Source: Salinirubellus salinus (lineage in GTDB: Archaea; Halobacteriota; Halobacteria; Halobacteriales; Haloarculaceae). From it: 64,000 bases of DNA. Within the stretch, counting starts at the first letter, position 1; each line of letters opens with the position of its first letter. The notes under the pieces are model-generated. The model was not told the DNA's origin, made no database searches, and was given only the letters and a program-made list of their open reading frames with translations. Location of the stretch: positions 2,108,001 to 2,172,000 of the forward strand of contig NZ_CP104003.1 in the NCBI RefSeq assembly GCF_025231485.1. Reading direction: 5' to 3'. The position numbers and the translations under genes were made by a program. Below are positions 14,074-42,893 of this stretch, piece by piece.

Positions 14074-16386
14074 TCAGCTTTCTGGTACAGAGACTAGTGA
14101 TCCGTTCCGGATGGAGGCTTCTGTAATTGTCGCCCGAGCGCCGTTTACCGAGTATGTACCAGTATAGGGGACAGTAACCTGGTAGGACCCATTCGTAGTA
14201 GTCTGTATTTCTCGTACATATTGGCTAGTTCCATTTCGGAACTCTACCTGCGTCGAGACTTTTACAGTCGTATCTGGAGCAGCTTTTCCCATCAGTGTGG
14301 CACCGGGAACTAGTTCAACCACCCGGTACTGCCCATCCTCCGAAGCGTAGACTACCCGATAGTGAGCTAGACCAGACCCGTTCGTGGTTTGGCTTCCGTT
14401 GGCCGCCAAGCGCTCTGCGATGCTCCCCGAGCGCATATCATCAAACTCCGTATCGTAGACGACGAAGCCCACCCGTCCACGCAACTGTTCGTACCACCGC
14501 GTCGAATTGCTCGAGTTCAAGAACGCCACGTAGTTCGCCCGTGCGAACCCATACGACCGAGACTCACCGTTGACGAAGTAGTTGTGCATCCGATTGTGTC
14601 CCCACTCGCTGAAGACGTAGTTCGGCCCCTCCCATCCCGGCTGGTCAGCCTGCTCCTCCATCCATGCCGTCGTCTCGTACATCTCGGTGGGCGTCGTGAT
14701 CTGGCTGGTCTTCAGCGGCACCTGCAACAGGCCAAGTCCCCCAACGAGCACGAACAGCGCGAGGAGCGTCCCGGCCTGTTGGCGGTTCGGCAGCACCAAT
14801 TGAGCCCCGTCAACGGTCCGGTCAAACGGTCGGGGGCGACGCGCAACCTCGAGCCGTTCAGCGAGATGAACGAAGCCGAGGCCGGCGAATAGGGCGATGA
14901 ACGAGGCGAATTCGCCAACGAATCGGATCTGCAACACCGAGAGCCCGAGGAACCACCACGCGTACACCGCGGGGACAGCCCAGACCGGTTCGGAGAGGGC
15001 ACGCCGCGTCCCCCATAACAGATAGGGAATCGCGAGGACGAGCACGAAGCCGAAGAGCAACAGCCACCCCACGGAGTCACCGAACAATCCCTGTACCTCA
15101 GCAATCTGGTCGCTTCGAAGGAGACTGCCCTCCACACGGCTCTGGAGCGTGCTCCACGCCTCAGGCAAGCCGAAGGCGACACCAGCGAGCCCTGCCCCAC
15201 CCGCGACACCAACCGCGACGGTCGCGAGTCGAGCATCCGGTCGGAGTCGGAATACCGCTTCGGTAACGAGAAGGACTCCCGCACTACCGGCGAGCAACAG
15301 GGCGGGCGCCGAGGCGACGACGTTCGTGTGCCACCCGAGCTCCGTGTGGACGAGCCACGTCACACCGGCCGCGATACCTGTCCCCACCAGTATCGGGAGG
15401 CCACGAACGAGTGGAGACTCATCAGTATGCACCCACGCGATACTCATCGCGGCGATAGCGAGCCCAGCCGCGCCAATCAACAATGGCCCCGCATCCCACG
15501 CCAGCACCTGCCCGGAGACGCCGAGACCGAGACCGAGCACTCCGAGCACGGCCCGCCCCCACTGGCCCCGCTCGCGTACCACGACGACCGCGAGCGAGAG
15601 GGCAGTAAGCCCGAGCCACGGGTAGTCGAACGCGTGATGGTCAGGGAATCCGAGACTGGTCCGGAGAGCGTGACCTGCAATGACGGCCAACATTAGCACG
15701 GAAGCGATGCCAACGCGCCGGTCCTCGGTCACGGTAACGGTGAGGAGATAGACGAGCACACCCGAGAGCAGCGCCGAGACGACGGGATACCACGCCAAGA
15801 GCCACCCAGTCGTCGTTGCCCCACCGCCGAGCACTGCTGCAATCGCCCACATCGTTACCACGTACAATGGCTCGCCCTTCACAACCTGCCATGGGAGCGA
15901 GGAAGGCGTTAGATCCGGATTCGCCAACAGTTGCTCGACCCAGTAGCGGTAGTAGTACGGGTCGTTCGACGAGAGGACGACCGCACCATCGCGAAAGACC
16001 GCAGAAAAGGAGAAGACCACGCGAAGCAGGACGAGAAACGCGAGCGCCCCGCCGAGCGCGAAAACGAGTCGGCGGTCAGGCAGCGTTGGCCGCGAGAGAC
16101 CCACCTCCGAAAGCGCGGAGGTACTCTCACCACGCTTCTCACCAGCTCCCGACGTTTCGCCTGCGAGCGCCCGCTCGACCGCCTGCGGATTCGCAAGTTG
16201 GTACCCGCCATCGGTTTTCGTGATAACTCCACGGGAGACGAGCTCGCCAAAGCGGCCGGAGTCGACCGAGAGGTCGTCGAATGTCCACGACTGTGCCCCG
16301 GCATCGGCTTGGAGGGCGGCTTCGAGCGGCGCCTCGAGGTCGGGGCGCTCATCCAGGAGGGCAGCAACCTCCTGTGCGTCGTTCAT
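14074..16386 (-). CDS. aglB: Diverged STT3/AglB oligosaccharyltransferase with extra N-terminal domain
   Basis: ATG 16386 (MNDAQEVAALLDERP) gives 770 residues; it lies 23 nt after a TATA-like TTTATTC. Residues 1-75 form a soluble domain ending in a winged-helix-like LVSRGVITKTDGGYQLANP. Then come about 11-13 membrane spans with the STT3 first-loop site SSNDPYYYRYW (about residue 143) and GFPDHHAFDY (about residue 249). The C-terminal periplasm-facing domain is beta-rich. The WWDxG sequon-recognition motif is not present: the matching place (about residue 595) reads FSEWGHNRMHNYFVNGES. The protein should transfer a dolichol-linked glycan to Asn, but acceptor recognition may differ. A paralogue lies at 38067-40499. 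Confidence 0.88.
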   Translation of the reverse strand: MNDAQEVAALLDERPDLEAPLEAALQADAGAQSWTFDDLSVDSGRFGELVSRGVITKTDGGYQLANPQAVERALAGETSGAGEKRGESTSALSEVGLSRPTLPDRRLVFALGGALAFLVLLRVVFSFSAVFRDGAVVLSSNDPYYYRYWVEQLLANPDLTPSSLPWQVVKGEPLYVVTMWAIAAVLGGGATTTGWLLAWYPVVSALLSGVLVYLLTVTVTEDRRVGIASVLMLAVIAGHALRTSLGFPDHHAFDYPWLGLTALSLAVVVVRERGQWGRAVLGVLGLGLGVSGQVLAWDAGPLLIGAAGLAIAAMSIAWVHTDESPLVRGLPILVGTGIAAGVTWLVHTELGWHTNVVASAPALLLAGSAGVLLVTEAVFRLRPDARLATVAVGVAGGAGLAGVAFGLPEAWSTLQSRVEGSLLRSDQIAEVQGLFGDSVGWLLLFGFVLVLAIPYLLWGTRRALSEPVWAVPAVYAWWFLGLSVLQIRFVGEFASFIALFAGLGFVHLAERLEVARRPRPFDRTVDGAQLVLPNRQQAGTLLALFVLVGGLGLLQVPLKTSQITTPTEMYETTAWMEEQADQPGWEGPNYVFSEWGHNRMHNYFVNGESRSYGFARANYVAFLNSSNSTRWYEQLRGRVGFVVYDTEFDDMRSGSIAERLAANGSQTTNGSGLAHYRVVYASEDGQYRVVELVPGATLMGKAAPDTTVKVSTQVEFRNGTSQYVREIQTTTNGSYQVTVPYTGTYSVNGARATITEASIRNGSLVSVPES

Positions 16387-16409
16387 ACCTCCGGTGATTG
16401 GAGACGAGC

Positions 16410-16416
16410 GAATAAA
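16410..16416 (-). promoter_or_regulatory. TATA-like element of the first aglB paralogue
   Basis: TTTATTC on the minus strand, 23 nt before ATG 16386. The second paralogue has the identical heptamer at the identical spacing. At this distance the transcript would be leaderless or nearly so, and the GGAGGT next to the ATG would then be outside or at the very edge of the mRNA. Confidence 0.55.
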
Positions 16417-16663
16417 CCCACCGACTACGCAGGGGCGGGTGGCGTCTTCGGCACAGCCTACCTCATACGCGCCAGCCAGGTGCTCAGTCACACCCAAAAC
16501 GGTCGGTGAACGGCGAGCAATGCCGGCGCTCTAAGCGGGTACAATCCGTGGCGGCGGCACGTCCACTCGAGCTTCAGAACCGCTATTAACACCAGGTTGT
16601 CGATTCCGGGATACCCATTCACAGATGCTTCCGACCGAAGGATTTTGGTAGTTTAGTTGATAT

Positions 16664-38066: not shown

Positions 38067-40499
38067 TCACTCGTCGAGTCGGATGGTCGCCCCCTCCGTG
38101 ACGGCCGTCTCGTTCACGGTCACCGTCGTATTCCCGAAGGTGTACGTCCCCGGATACGAGACAGTGAGGCTGAACGCGCCGTTATCCGCCGGCTCAACGA
38201 GTCGCTGATAGCTGAACGATGCCCCCTCAGTCGAGACATCTGTCGCGGTGATGAACGACTCGTTGGCGCTCAACGTTCCGATGATTTTCGCACCAGGGAC
38301 GACCTGAAATACCTGGTATGCCCCATTCTGTGAGTCACGCTCGTAGATGAGTCGGTAGTGTGAGACGCCCTCCTCGGCGTCTCCGAGGCTGCCGTAGTGC
38401 TCGCGGAGCCGCGAGAGTACCACGTCACGGTCTGTGTCGTAATCCGGGTCAAGCACGATGAACCCGACCGGCTTGTTCAACACGCCATAGCGCTTGTGTC
38501 TGGTCTGGAACTCTTCACGCTCGAATTTCTCGTACCAGAATCCCGGACTGGGCGACCCCAAGAAGGGAAGGTAGTCGTTCTGTGCGTACGCATAAGACTC
38601 GGACTCACCGCTGACGAAGTAGTTGTACATCCGATTACGCCACCACTTCGAGAACACGCGATTGTCCGGATACGAGAGATCTTGCGTCTCAGCGAACTCC
38701 GCGGTGAACGCTGCAGTTTCGTACTCGCCTTCGGTCATCGGACCTCTCGAAGCGTAGTTCGGCCCTTGCACGATGCCGTAGCCACCGATGAGTAAGAAGA
38801 GCAAGACGATGACGCCGAACTGCTTGACCGAAGGCCACCCAACGCCAGTCAGTCGGTCGGCCACATCCGTGAACGGCACCGGATCGCTAAGCACCTCAAC
38901 CTTCCACGCCAGATAGACGAGGGCCAGCCCAGCGAAGGCAGCGACGAACGGTGCAAACTCGCCCGCGAAGCGCTGCTGGAGCGAGGCGAGAAACAGGAAC
39001 GACCAGCCGTAAGCGACGCCAGCCAGCCAGCGTCGTGACCCCCCCCACGCTCGGTACGATCCCCAGATGAAGCCCACGATGGCGAAGAACAGTACCGGCC
39101 CGAACAGTGTCAGCCAGCCATTACTCCGCAATGAGAAAAGCGGCTGATACTCGACGATGGGCCGCGAGTCGAGCAGGACGCCAATCCGCGAGAACAGTAC
39201 CTCACCAACCGCGGGGATGATCAGCGTGATGGCTGTCATGAACGCGATGAACCCTGCCGTCATCACGACGAGAAGGACCGAGAGGTCCGCCACAGGAAGG
39301 GAGACGCGGCGAACCGCCTCGGCGGCCACGCCCACCGCTAGCCCACCGGCAAACAATAATAGCGGTGTGAACGCCACCACCGCGCTGTGCCAGCCGAACA
39401 GCAGGTGGACACTCCCCGAGAGCGCGCCGCCGAGCGCCAACCCAAGCAGGACAGGCGCGTTCGCCCAGAACGCCGAGGTGCCATCACGCGCTGCCAGCAC
39501 CGTAACCACAGGTAGGTAGACCAACAGCGGCAACAGCAGCAACGGCCCGGCCTCCCACGCGAGCATCTGTCCTGCGACGCCGAGCGCGACCCCACCTACT
39601 CCGAAAAAGAGCGGGCGACTTGGCCGAACGAGCGCCTCACGCGTCGCGGGTAACCGCGCCAGCATGACCACGCTTGCGGCCGTCAGCGTCAGCCAGATGT
39701 AATCGAAGGCGTGGTGATCGGCGAATCCGAGTCCCGAACGAAAGACGTGGACGGGAACGACCGCCAGCATCGCGACCGCCGCAATGGCAATCCGCTTGTC
39801 GTCGGTTAGCTCACGCGTGAACACGTAGGTGAGCAGCCCGACCAGCACCGCGCTGACGACGGGATACCACGCCAAGACGAGCCCGGAGGCCGTCTGTGTC
39901 CCGCCAAATAGGCTGGTAAAGAACCAGAGCGTCGCGACCAGCAGTGGCTCGCCACCCCGGACGCGCTCAGGGAGGGCCGCCAGCCCACCGAAGTCGAGCG
40001 TGCCACCCGCGGCGACGACCTGATCGACCCAGTAGCGGTAGTAATACGGGTCGTTCGCTGAGAGGACAACCGCGTCGGAATAGAAGATACGCTCCCAGAC
40101 AGTGAGGCGAAGCACCACCACGAGCGCGAGTGCTCCTACCAGCCCAAGCGCCGCGCGGTCATCAGCCGAAAGACGTGCTGTTATATCGAGCGACTCCCGG
40201 ACGCTCGCCGTCGCCCCCCCGTCGGTGCTGGCCGACTCGCGCTCGGTCGATGTGTCTTCGATAGTGACCTCTCCACCAAGCGCTGCCTCGACCGCGCCCG
40301 GATTCGCCAACCGGTACTCCCCGTCAACTTTCTCGACCACCCCTCGCGAGACGAGTTCGCCGAACGCCCCAGAATCAGCCTCGAGATCCCCAAACACCCA
40401 CGTTTCATGACGTTCATCCACAACCGAGGCCGCCTCGACTGCCTCCTCCAGATCAGGCCGGTCAGCGAGGAGTCGAGCGACCTCGGACGCATCACTCAT
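38067..40499 (-). CDS. aglB: Diverged STT3/AglB oligosaccharyltransferase, second paralogue
   Basis: ATG 40499 (MSDASEVARLLADRP) gives 810 residues and lies 23 nt after a TTTATTC. The N-terminal 75 residues match the first paralogue (LVSRGVVEKVDGEYRLANPG). Membrane spans follow, with the catalytic first-loop site SANDPYYYRYW (about residue 150) and GFADHHAFDY (about residue 262). At the WWDxG position it has FSKWWRNRMYNYFVSGES (about residue 621), sharing NRMxNYFVxGES with the first copy, so both belong to one diverged STT3 group. The C-terminal domain is beta-rich (YPGTYTFGNTTVTVNE). It is divergent from the LamG pilin-like gene. Confidence 0.88.
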   Translation of the reverse strand: MSDASEVARLLADRPDLEEAVEAASVVDERHETWVFGDLEADSGAFGELVSRGVVEKVDGEYRLANPGAVEAALGGEVTIEDTSTERESASTDGGATASVRESLDITARLSADDRAALGLVGALALVVVLRLTVWERIFYSDAVVLSANDPYYYRYWVDQVVAAGGTLDFGGLAALPERVRGGEPLLVATLWFFTSLFGGTQTASGLVLAWYPVVSAVLVGLLTYVFTRELTDDKRIAIAAVAMLAVVPVHVFRSGLGFADHHAFDYIWLTLTAASVVMLARLPATREALVRPSRPLFFGVGGVALGVAGQMLAWEAGPLLLLPLLVYLPVVTVLAARDGTSAFWANAPVLLGLALGGALSGSVHLLFGWHSAVVAFTPLLLFAGGLAVGVAAEAVRRVSLPVADLSVLLVVMTAGFIAFMTAITLIIPAVGEVLFSRIGVLLDSRPIVEYQPLFSLRSNGWLTLFGPVLFFAIVGFIWGSYRAWGGSRRWLAGVAYGWSFLFLASLQQRFAGEFAPFVAAFAGLALVYLAWKVEVLSDPVPFTDVADRLTGVGWPSVKQFGVIVLLFLLIGGYGIVQGPNYASRGPMTEGEYETAAFTAEFAETQDLSYPDNRVFSKWWRNRMYNYFVSGESESYAYAQNDYLPFLGSPSPGFWYEKFEREEFQTRHKRYGVLNKPVGFIVLDPDYDTDRDVVLSRLREHYGSLGDAEEGVSHYRLIYERDSQNGAYQVFQVVPGAKIIGTLSANESFITATDVSTEGASFSYQRLVEPADNGAFSLTVSYPGTYTFGNTTVTVNETAVTEGATIRLDE

Positions 40500-40529: not shown

Positions 40530-40643
40530 GCCTCTGCCCTCTGCGACTCTCGATAGCCCTCGCGTCGAAGGGCGCTGCCTACCCCAACCACGCACTGAGG
40601 GAGTGTGACCGCGCAACGGTACGCTGCTGAGCAATGCCGCTCA

Positions 40644-40673: not shown

Positions 40674-42893
40674 ATGAGAAGCCGGCCACCGTGGGCCGGA
40701 CGGGGGGTCTCGACAGTGTTGGCGGTGATCTTCCTCGTCGGGCTCGCCATCATCGGCGGGACAATCGTCGGAGCGTACAGTTTGGGGCTCATCGACGGGG
40801 CATTGGGCACGGACGTGCCGCAGGTGGCCTACGAGTTCGAGTACGACGCTGAACAGGGCGTCCTCACCATTGGCCAGACCGCAGGCCAGCGCTTCGGGGG
40901 TGAGGAACTCAAGACACTCCAGATTCAGGTCGCCGACGGCACGAGGACCGAGACCTTCAGTTGGGCTGCGGCGGTCGGACCGGAAGCGACGGTCGCTGCT
41001 GGGTCGAGCATTCGCCTCGACGACAGCACTGGGGCCAACATGGGGTCGTTCACCCACTCGGGCGTGTTCAACGCGGGCGACACCGTCCGCGTCGTCTTCG
41101 AAGGGCGCACGGAGAGCTACACCCTCGCGACCTACCGCATCACCGAGGGGCCGAGTGCCGTCGCGAGCTGGCGGGCTCCAACCACGGGGCTGCTGAACCG
41201 CTACCCCCTCGACGAAGCTGAAGTGGTCACCACGGACATGGCCGGCGATGGCGCGGGTCGAAACACAGGGGCAACCCGAGGTGTCGACGGACAGGTCGGC
41301 TCGGCCTACATGTTCGACGGCGATGACTACATCGCGCTGGACCGGTCGTTCGACGGCAGCGGGACGCTTGAGGAGGTGACAGCGTGTGCCTGGTTCCGGA
41401 CGAGCGAGCGCGGCACCGGTGAGTTCGATAACTGGGCACTGCTGGATTTCGATCGCTCGGAGTATTTTAACCTCTATGTCCGTGGCGATACGGGCGGTAT
41501 TGGCTTTTCGACGTCCGGGCCCGAACGAACGATGGTCGACCACAGCACGGCCGGAGACTACACGGATGGAGACTGGCACCTCGCCTGCGGGATTTACGAC
41601 GCAGCCACGGACACCAAACGCATCTACGTCGACGGCTCGCTCGAAGAGGAGGTCGCCGCACAGAACAGCGGCGGTCTGGGGACTGGCGCGACGCGCTACG
41701 GCATCATCGGCGATGGCTCGGAGGCTGCCTCGTTCGACGGCGACCGAAACACGAGGTACTTCGACGGCCGCATCGACGAAGTCCGTCTCTACGAGACGGT
41801 CCTCACCCCGAGTGAGATTAGCGCAATCTACAATGCCGGCCGCGGAGTCGATGGTGCGAGCGATCCCACCCGTGGGCTGACAAACTACTGGCCTCTCGAT
41901 GAGCCGGGCACCACGGACGCCGTCGCCGATATCGCTGGTGGCGGTTCTGGAACGATCGTCGGTACAAGCACCCAGCGAGCGGTCGATGGGCCGGTCGGGA
42001 ACGCCTACCGCTTCCGCGACGGGAGCGGTTACGTCGCGCTCAACCGTACGTTCATCAGCGATACCGTCGGGAACCTCACCGCGTGTGCGTGGTTCCAAAC
42101 GAGCGAGGCAGACGGCTCGGAGAATTGGGCGTTACTCGATTTCGACCGCTCTGAGTACTTCAATCTCTATGTGGAAGGGGACGGTGATGTTGGGTGGTCG
42201 ACCTCGGCGGTCCCCGGCTACGACAGCGGTTCGGTCGATGATCTGTACGCCGACGGCGGATTCAATGACGGGGATTGGCACCACGCTTGTGGCGTCTACG
42301 ACGGCGGGAAGCGACTCATCGTCGACGGCCGAGACCGGGCGAGTCGGGCCGACCCACACGACGGGCAATCCCTCGGGACCGGTACCACCCGGTACGGTGT
42401 CATCGGTGAGGGCTCGGAGGCCGACGACTACGGCCGACTTACCAGCGCGTCGAACGGCAATCAGCGCAACGAGTACTACTACGATGGCGCGGTGGATGAC
42501 GTTCGACTCTACGGACGCGGGCTTTCGACAGCTGAGGCTAGCCGCCTGTGGGCGTTTACCGGCGGGGCCGTCAAGACAACCTACGAGACTGCATCGCGGT
42601 CGTTCGCCGAGCCGACCGATGTCGAGGGGCTCTCTGTCCGGTCGCTCGGCGCACAGCTCCCGGCTGGAACAACCGTCACGGTCCGCGTCCGAGCGGACAC
42701 CGGCGGCGACGGTATAGATTCAGAGGACCCACTAAGCGAGCCGGTGACGTTCACGCCTACTGCGAGCGGAATGCAGGCCGTCGACGGACTCTCCGGAGAG
42801 GCGACGACTGTCCGCCTCGAGGTGACGTTTGGCGGGACAACAGCTGCGGCCGGTTCGCCGACAGTCGATGGCTTCGATGTACTCGGGTCGTGA
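40674..42893 (+). CDS. Pilin-signal adhesin with two LamG domains
   Basis: ATG 40674 (MRSRPPWAGRGVSTVLAVIF) gives 739 residues. The charged leader ending GRG, followed by VSTVLAVIFLVGLAIIGG, is a class III signal peptide and N-terminal helix of a type IV pilin-like protein, cut after residue 11. A beta domain of about 140 residues follows. Two concanavalin-type LamG domains come next (about 172-391, starting LLNRYPLDE, and 401-628, starting LTNYWPLDE), both with LLDFDRSEYFNLYV and ATRYG/TTRYG repeats. A C-terminal beta domain of about 110 residues ends the protein. LamG domains bind glycans, so this looks like a pilus-associated adhesin. It is divergent from an aglB paralogue. Confidence 0.88.
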   Translation: MRSRPPWAGRGVSTVLAVIFLVGLAIIGGTIVGAYSLGLIDGALGTDVPQVAYEFEYDAEQGVLTIGQTAGQRFGGEELKTLQIQVADGTRTETFSWAAAVGPEATVAAGSSIRLDDSTGANMGSFTHSGVFNAGDTVRVVFEGRTESYTLATYRITEGPSAVASWRAPTTGLLNRYPLDEAEVVTTDMAGDGAGRNTGATRGVDGQVGSAYMFDGDDYIALDRSFDGSGTLEEVTACAWFRTSERGTGEFDNWALLDFDRSEYFNLYVRGDTGGIGFSTSGPERTMVDHSTAGDYTDGDWHLACGIYDAATDTKRIYVDGSLEEEVAAQNSGGLGTGATRYGIIGDGSEAASFDGDRNTRYFDGRIDEVRLYETVLTPSEISAIYNAGRGVDGASDPTRGLTNYWPLDEPGTTDAVADIAGGGSGTIVGTSTQRAVDGPVGNAYRFRDGSGYVALNRTFISDTVGNLTACAWFQTSEADGSENWALLDFDRSEYFNLYVEGDGDVGWSTSAVPGYDSGSVDDLYADGGFNDGDWHHACGVYDGGKRLIVDGRDRASRADPHDGQSLGTGTTRYGVIGEGSEADDYGRLTSASNGNQRNEYYYDGAVDDVRLYGRGLSTAEASRLWAFTGGAVKTTYETASRSFAEPTDVEGLSVRSLGAQLPAGTTVTVRVRADTGGDGIDSEDPLSEPVTFTPTASGMQAVDGLSGEATTVRLEVTFGGTTAAAGSPTVDGFDVLGS

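Follow-up and report, generated by a model that had tools for sequence, protein, structure and literature searches.

A probable haloarchaeal modular pilin with two tandem LamG domains and a LamG signature shared with haloviruses

In the window (the whole 64,000-nucleotide stretch of Salinirubellus salinus DNA that was analyzed), an intact reading frame encodes a protein of 739 residues, whose parts follow one another in the order of leader peptide, hydrophobic helix, PilA-like head, two LamG domains, and C-terminal domain (Table 1). The ATG at 40674 was preferred as the start codon over an upstream GTG at 40605, because the leaders of the orthologues have 11-12 residues and because of an AT-rich box, AATTAATAA, whose sequence would fit a leaderless haloarchaeal promoter. 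Codon bias of the gene resembles that of its neighbors (GC3 0.77). A six-frame search of the genome detected 15 Pilin_N frames, among which this one is by far the largest (764 codons versus at most 412), in agreement with the preliminary description of the product as unusually large for a pilin. The last ~100 residues matched no known family in the searches run.

Table 1. Features of the double-LamG pilin gene and of the adjoining STT3/AglB-like gene (window coordinates)
Feature	Position	Strand	Evidence or remark
Divergent STT3/AglB-like membrane protein	38067..40499	-	Pfam STT3, AglB_L1; TIGR04154 113.6 bits vs cut-off 450
TATA-like AT-rich box AATTAATAA	40643..40651	+	~27 bases 5' of ATG; promoter role inferred
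Double-LamG modular pilin CDS, 739 aa	40674..42893 (ATG to stop)	+	Orthologues align across entire length
Leader peptide MRSRPPWAGRG, predicted prepilin peptidase cut after G11	40674..40706	+	Class III pattern; Pilin_N from aa 10
N-terminal hydrophobic helix VSTVLAVIFLVGLAIIGGTIVGAYSLGLID, aa 12-41	40707..40796	+	Sequence; Pilin_N match aa 10-81
Pilin module with PilA-like head, aa 12-155	40707..41138	+	Profile matches 8fj5, 9myg, 8gi2; blast to ordinary pilins aa 10-162
LamG domain 1, ~aa 168-397	41175..41864	+	Pfam; AlphaFold2 pLDDT 79.8, pTM 0.84; Foldseek
Predicted pentraxin-type disulfide, Cys238-Cys305 span, LamG 1	41385..41588	+	Invariant in orthologues; aligns with pentraxin cysteines
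Block 1 DFDRSEYFNLY, LamG 1	41445..41477	+	DRSE invariant in pilin-family and viral domains but not in other LamGs compared
Block 2 RYGIIGDGSE, LamG 1	41694..41723	+	Orthologue alignment; motif comparison
LamG domain 2, ~aa 398-638	41865..42587	+	Pfam; 50% identical to LamG 1; model
Block 1 DFDRSEYFNLY, LamG 2	42138..42170	+	Orthologue alignment; motif comparison
Block 2 RYGVIGEGSE, LamG 2	42390..42419	+	Orthologue alignment; motif comparison
C-terminal domain, ~100 aa	42594..42890	+	Conserved in orthologues; low-confidence model

The N-terminus follows the class III signal pattern, namely a short, hydrophilic leader whose last residue is G or A, followed by about 20 hydrophobic residues (here GRG and then VSTVLAVIFLVGLAIIGGTIVG). 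Pilin_N was matched at 28.9 bits in the six-frame genome search, above the cut-off, and at 24.2 bits, slightly below the cut-off of 25.2, in a single-protein hmmscan. The solved archaeal pilin 8fj5 was matched by the single sequence at 2.3e-7 (aa 11-146) and by a profile of four orthologues at an E value of 4e-12 (aa 10-152), the latter also matching 9myg and Natrinema PilA2 (8gi2). Because these matches span the head, a whole pilin module is present, beyond a mere signal. Haloarchaeal PilA-type pilins (Pilin_N; 8fj5, 8gi2) share with it the signal, the hydrophobic helix, and the head, but are only ~145-165 residues long, i.e., about 580 fewer; the ordinary ones were also the closest blast relatives of the head. 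A Sec or Tat signal is ruled out by the class III pattern together with the pilin head. Thus, the pilin-like nature and PibD-type signal (GRG then VST) that had been read from the DNA are borne out by pattern and homology, with cleavage itself predicted, and the Sec signal without a pilin-type cleavage site that might have replaced them was not found.

Both LamG domains were recognized by Laminin_G_3 (PF13385; 112.5 bits in all versus a cut-off of 27.6). The fairly confident AlphaFold2 model of LamG 1 and its Foldseek matches add the jelly-roll fold to the profile match, which places the domains in the LamG/concanavalin A-like superfamily; the tandem LamG pair of the preliminary description therefore held up, and the absence of a predicted LamG fold, which would have spoken against it, did not occur. 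Alignment of the two domains scored 491, compared with 48 ± 9 for shuffled sequences (maximum of 96 among 500). Both copies contain the very same block, DFDRSEYFNLY (aa 258-268 and 489-499), although about half of its codons differ. Considering these codon differences and that the repeats are just 69% identical in DNA, they result from an old duplication maintained by selection and not from an assembly artefact.

The LamG profile aligned with a Limulus SAP-like pentraxin (2.5e-8), PTX3, and C-reactive protein. In this alignment, the pentraxin cysteine pair corresponds to Cys238/Cys305 in LamG 1 and to Cys471/Cys539 in LamG 2, the latter likewise invariant in orthologues; presence of the pair across LamG domains gave a Fisher p of 5e-5, a value that ignores the kinship of the sequences. 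The first pentraxin calcium loop has its D aligned with that of DRSEY, and the second aligns with GSE; the residues are partly the same, and the calcium ligands are not all conserved residue for residue. The pentraxin calcium-binding residues and cysteine pairing used here are those generally known. The two blocks may form a calcium or ligand site. Fold and profile neighbors of the domains (Foldseek and profile search) include carbohydrate-binding jelly rolls and pentraxins. Clostridial neurotoxin binding domains also appeared among the Foldseek matches; at 10-16% identity they reflect the general jelly-roll fold alone, and no functional meaning was drawn from them. A single-sequence scan of genome contigs matched only distant bacterial LamG.

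Among 392 genomes of the order, full-length homologues were identified in three (G364, 747 aa; G358, 746 aa; G374, 793 aa as read, with an uncertain start), all from another GTDB family. They are 42-44% identical to the protein over 690-734 residues and have the same order of parts, so the architecture represents a small conserved family. It is rare (4/392), and within the source organism's own family it was found, among the genomes searched, only in this genome. The gene neighborhoods of the orthologues differ from that in the window, implying that the gene travels alone and that its neighbors give no pointer to function.

One of these neighbors is the divergent STT3/AglB-like gene, which has a paralogue at 14074-16497 on the same (-) strand; each of the two adjoins a pilin gene (at 40674 and 13390, respectively). 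The WWDYG motif was absent from both proteins in a motif check, and both, at ~113 bits, fall short of the 450 bits set as cut-off for the archaeal OST subfamily. At 863 bits, the true AglB-type gene is located elsewhere in the genome (G000:C1, 1570612). A functional link between the pilin and the STT3-like gene is unsupported, considering that no such neighbor accompanies any of the three orthologues, that WWDYG is missing, and that the score is far below the OST cut-off. About a dozen genomes of the family, as well as the source genome (G000:C1, ~3831562), encode STT3-like membrane proteins of ~930-1020 aa with a C-terminal LamG domain, which group as a single clade of the LamG tree (96/95). 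In our literature search, AglB and LamG were found together in no paper.

By scanning for LamG and reading the N-termini across 146 genomes of the family, we detected single-LamG pilins of ~330-390 aa (15 loci or more), longer forms with ~500-550 aa, and pilin-signal proteins with PKD and LamG of ~900 aa, one of them in the source genome. In a set of 27 pilin-signal LamG proteins, Pilin_N was present in 24 and LamG in 26 at an E value of 0.01. The single-LamG and PKD-LamG proteins share the pilin signal and LamG with the double-LamG pilin but belong to other lineages, carry one LamG domain and pilin heads unlike its own, and lack the DRSEY/RYG signature; no other LamG pilin was found among the hits of its head at an E value of 0.001. 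In a tree of 76 LamG domains, single-LamG pilins formed one clade and the double-LamG family another, with the longer forms scattered, and a single clade of single- and double-LamG pilins was rejected (p-AU 0.014). These separate clades and the differing pilin heads indicate that grafting is recurrent, LamG having been joined to haloarchaeal pilins more than once.

Several other proteins were noted in the course of this survey. One large pilin bears PA14 domains in place of LamG, and pilin-like proteins of ~600 aa are present in three genomes (G366, G421, and G374), the one scanned having PA14 and no LamG. Also common in the family, and found mostly in one genus, are Tat-type lipoproteins of ~600-690 aa that carry a pair of LamG domains; descent of the double-LamG pilins from them is unsupported, a joint clade with the Tat-type group being rejected (p-AU 0.0002). 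The TafC family (NF052521) likewise consists of haloarchaeal fimbrial proteins with a C-terminal LamG-like part, but these have a Tat-like N-terminus and no pilin, and membership of our protein was dismissed (29 bits versus a cut-off of 410); TafC-family proteins were observed in five genomes of the family. The source genome also contains a 2315-codon frame with four LamG matches, three of them above the cut-off (G000:C1, 3778762-3784851).

DRSE and RY/GSE are invariant in 8/8 domains of the double-LamG pilin family and in 5/5 viral domains compared, and the full DRSEY plus RYGxxGxGSE motif was absent from the other LamG domains of the comparison. The viral carriers comprise gp7 of the isolated Halorubrum tailed virus 25 (HRTV-25), which was retrieved by plain tblastn, LamG proteins beside baseplate genes in proviruses of two genomes of another family (L139 and L140; baseplate matches were tested in L139), and a protein of an 82-kb viral contig (L144), which was retrieved by a pattern including DRSEY. 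These proteins (L212, L139, L140, and L144) have the same blocks but no pilin part, and are set among baseplate or packaging genes. In the tail regions of both proviruses, several consecutive LamG-bearing proteins follow the baseplate genes, resembling a receptor-binding cassette. The viral domains group with the double-LamG pilin family in the tree (support 97/95). In a profile search of the 392 genomes, double-LamG pilins and proviral proteins scored 263-334 bits, compared with 90 bits for the next LamG, the top scorers being those from which the profile had been built. In this sample, the LamG subfamily defined by DRSEY/RYGxxGxGSE was found only in double-LamG pilins and haloviral or proviral structural proteins.

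The anatomy of the protein, a pilin followed by two LamG domains, can be stated with high confidence. Its full function is best explained as that of a minor modular type IV pilin displaying the LamG pair as a glycan-binding adhesive head, to which we assign a probability of about 65%. Prepilin peptidase (PibD) would cut after GRG, and the hydrophobic helix and PilA-like head would allow the protein to be incorporated, in a few copies, into a type IV pilus consisting mainly of ordinary pilins. The LamG modules would then project outward, from the tip or the shaft, as a bivalent adhesive head, which most likely would bind glycans, possibly of the cell surface or matrix, via the pentraxin-like loop site of DRSEY and RYGxxGxGSE. 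Thus, the pilus-bound lectin adhesin that had been suggested for this gene survives as the best reading, with its processing, pilus incorporation, tip position, and sugar binding all at the level of prediction.

The role as a minor pilin is suggested by analogy with Streptococcus sanguinis PilC and with UpsA, and the ~580 extra residues argue against a major subunit. PilC is a lectin modular pilin, modelled at the pilus tip, whose lectin module has been measured to bind sialylated glycans and GAGs (PMC9934059), and UpsA archaeal pilins were proposed to recognize species-specific N-glycans (PMC7064770). Similar to PilC, the double-LamG protein is a type IV pilin with a C-terminal grafted concanavalin-type beta-sandwich module and a probable role in adhesion. 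PilC differs in having an Ig and one lectin module, partner minor pilin genes, and measured binding, whereas the haloarchaeal protein, known from its sequence, has the archaeal Pilin_N class, a PilA-like head, and a tandem LamG pair. In the genome, 11 T2SSF (PilC-type) matches above the cut-off are spread over several loci, and an archaeal prepilin peptidase was matched as well. No pilus assembly genes were found beside the double-LamG gene, the nearest PilC-type match being ~195 kb away, which counts against the favored explanation, as do the borderline Pilin_N score in the single-protein scan, the partly conserved pentraxin calcium ligands, and the rarity of the gene.

LamG domains, such as those in laminin and neurexin of eukaryotes, bind proteins too; glycan binding is therefore not assured, and the LamG pair might instead recognize proteins, e.g., of the S-layer or of a partner cell, making the product a pilus adhesin and no lectin. 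Distant profile matches to neurexin are in line with this, but the better-scoring matches are mostly to pentraxins, an arabinanase C-terminal domain, and a sialidase lectin domain, and we regard protein binding as possible though clearly the less probable choice. It is rather unlikely that the protein, after PibD processing, remains in the membrane, or within a short stub resembling a pseudopilus, as a surface lectin that binds sugars or matrix with no long pilus: the lack of adjoining pilus genes, the very large cargo, and the richness of haloarchaeal genomes in pilin-like proteins of unknown role would all be compatible with it, but the head comprises a complete pilin domain of the PilA type and is no minimal anchor. 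A chance fusion or pseudogene, in which a pilin start would run on into a LamG gene unrelated to it, might be imagined for the sole carrier in its family, but is negligible given the intact frame, the ordinary codon bias, and above all the full-length homologues in three other genomes.

There is also a bolder scenario, which we consider doubtful: haloarchaeal pili and haloviral tails might share one glycan-binding LamG subfamily (that with the DRSEY/RYGxxGxGSE signature). A pilin would have acquired a viral receptor-binding module, or a virus one from a pilin, with the result that both recognize the same haloarchaeal surface glycan, the role of the pilin being species-specific recognition between cells.

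In a survey based on the bacterial IPR012902 signal (PMC8179133), modular pilins bearing grafted adhesive domains proved widespread among bacteria, and a census of archaeal pili makes no mention of LamG or lectin (PMC4858521). Archaeal LamG pilins were described in no paper found by our literature search. Modular pilins as such are already known, and the pilin-double-LamG fusion in archaea is a new variation on them. The conserved family, the recurrent grafting, and the signature shared with haloviruses had all been overlooked in the preliminary description. The double-LamG family and the other LamG pilins suggest that archaea, too, turn pili into adhesins by grafting modules of a sugar-binding type, and do so repeatedly. 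Moreover, the signature common to viruses and pilins connects the ligands of haloarchaeal pili with the receptors of haloviruses in a way that can be tested.
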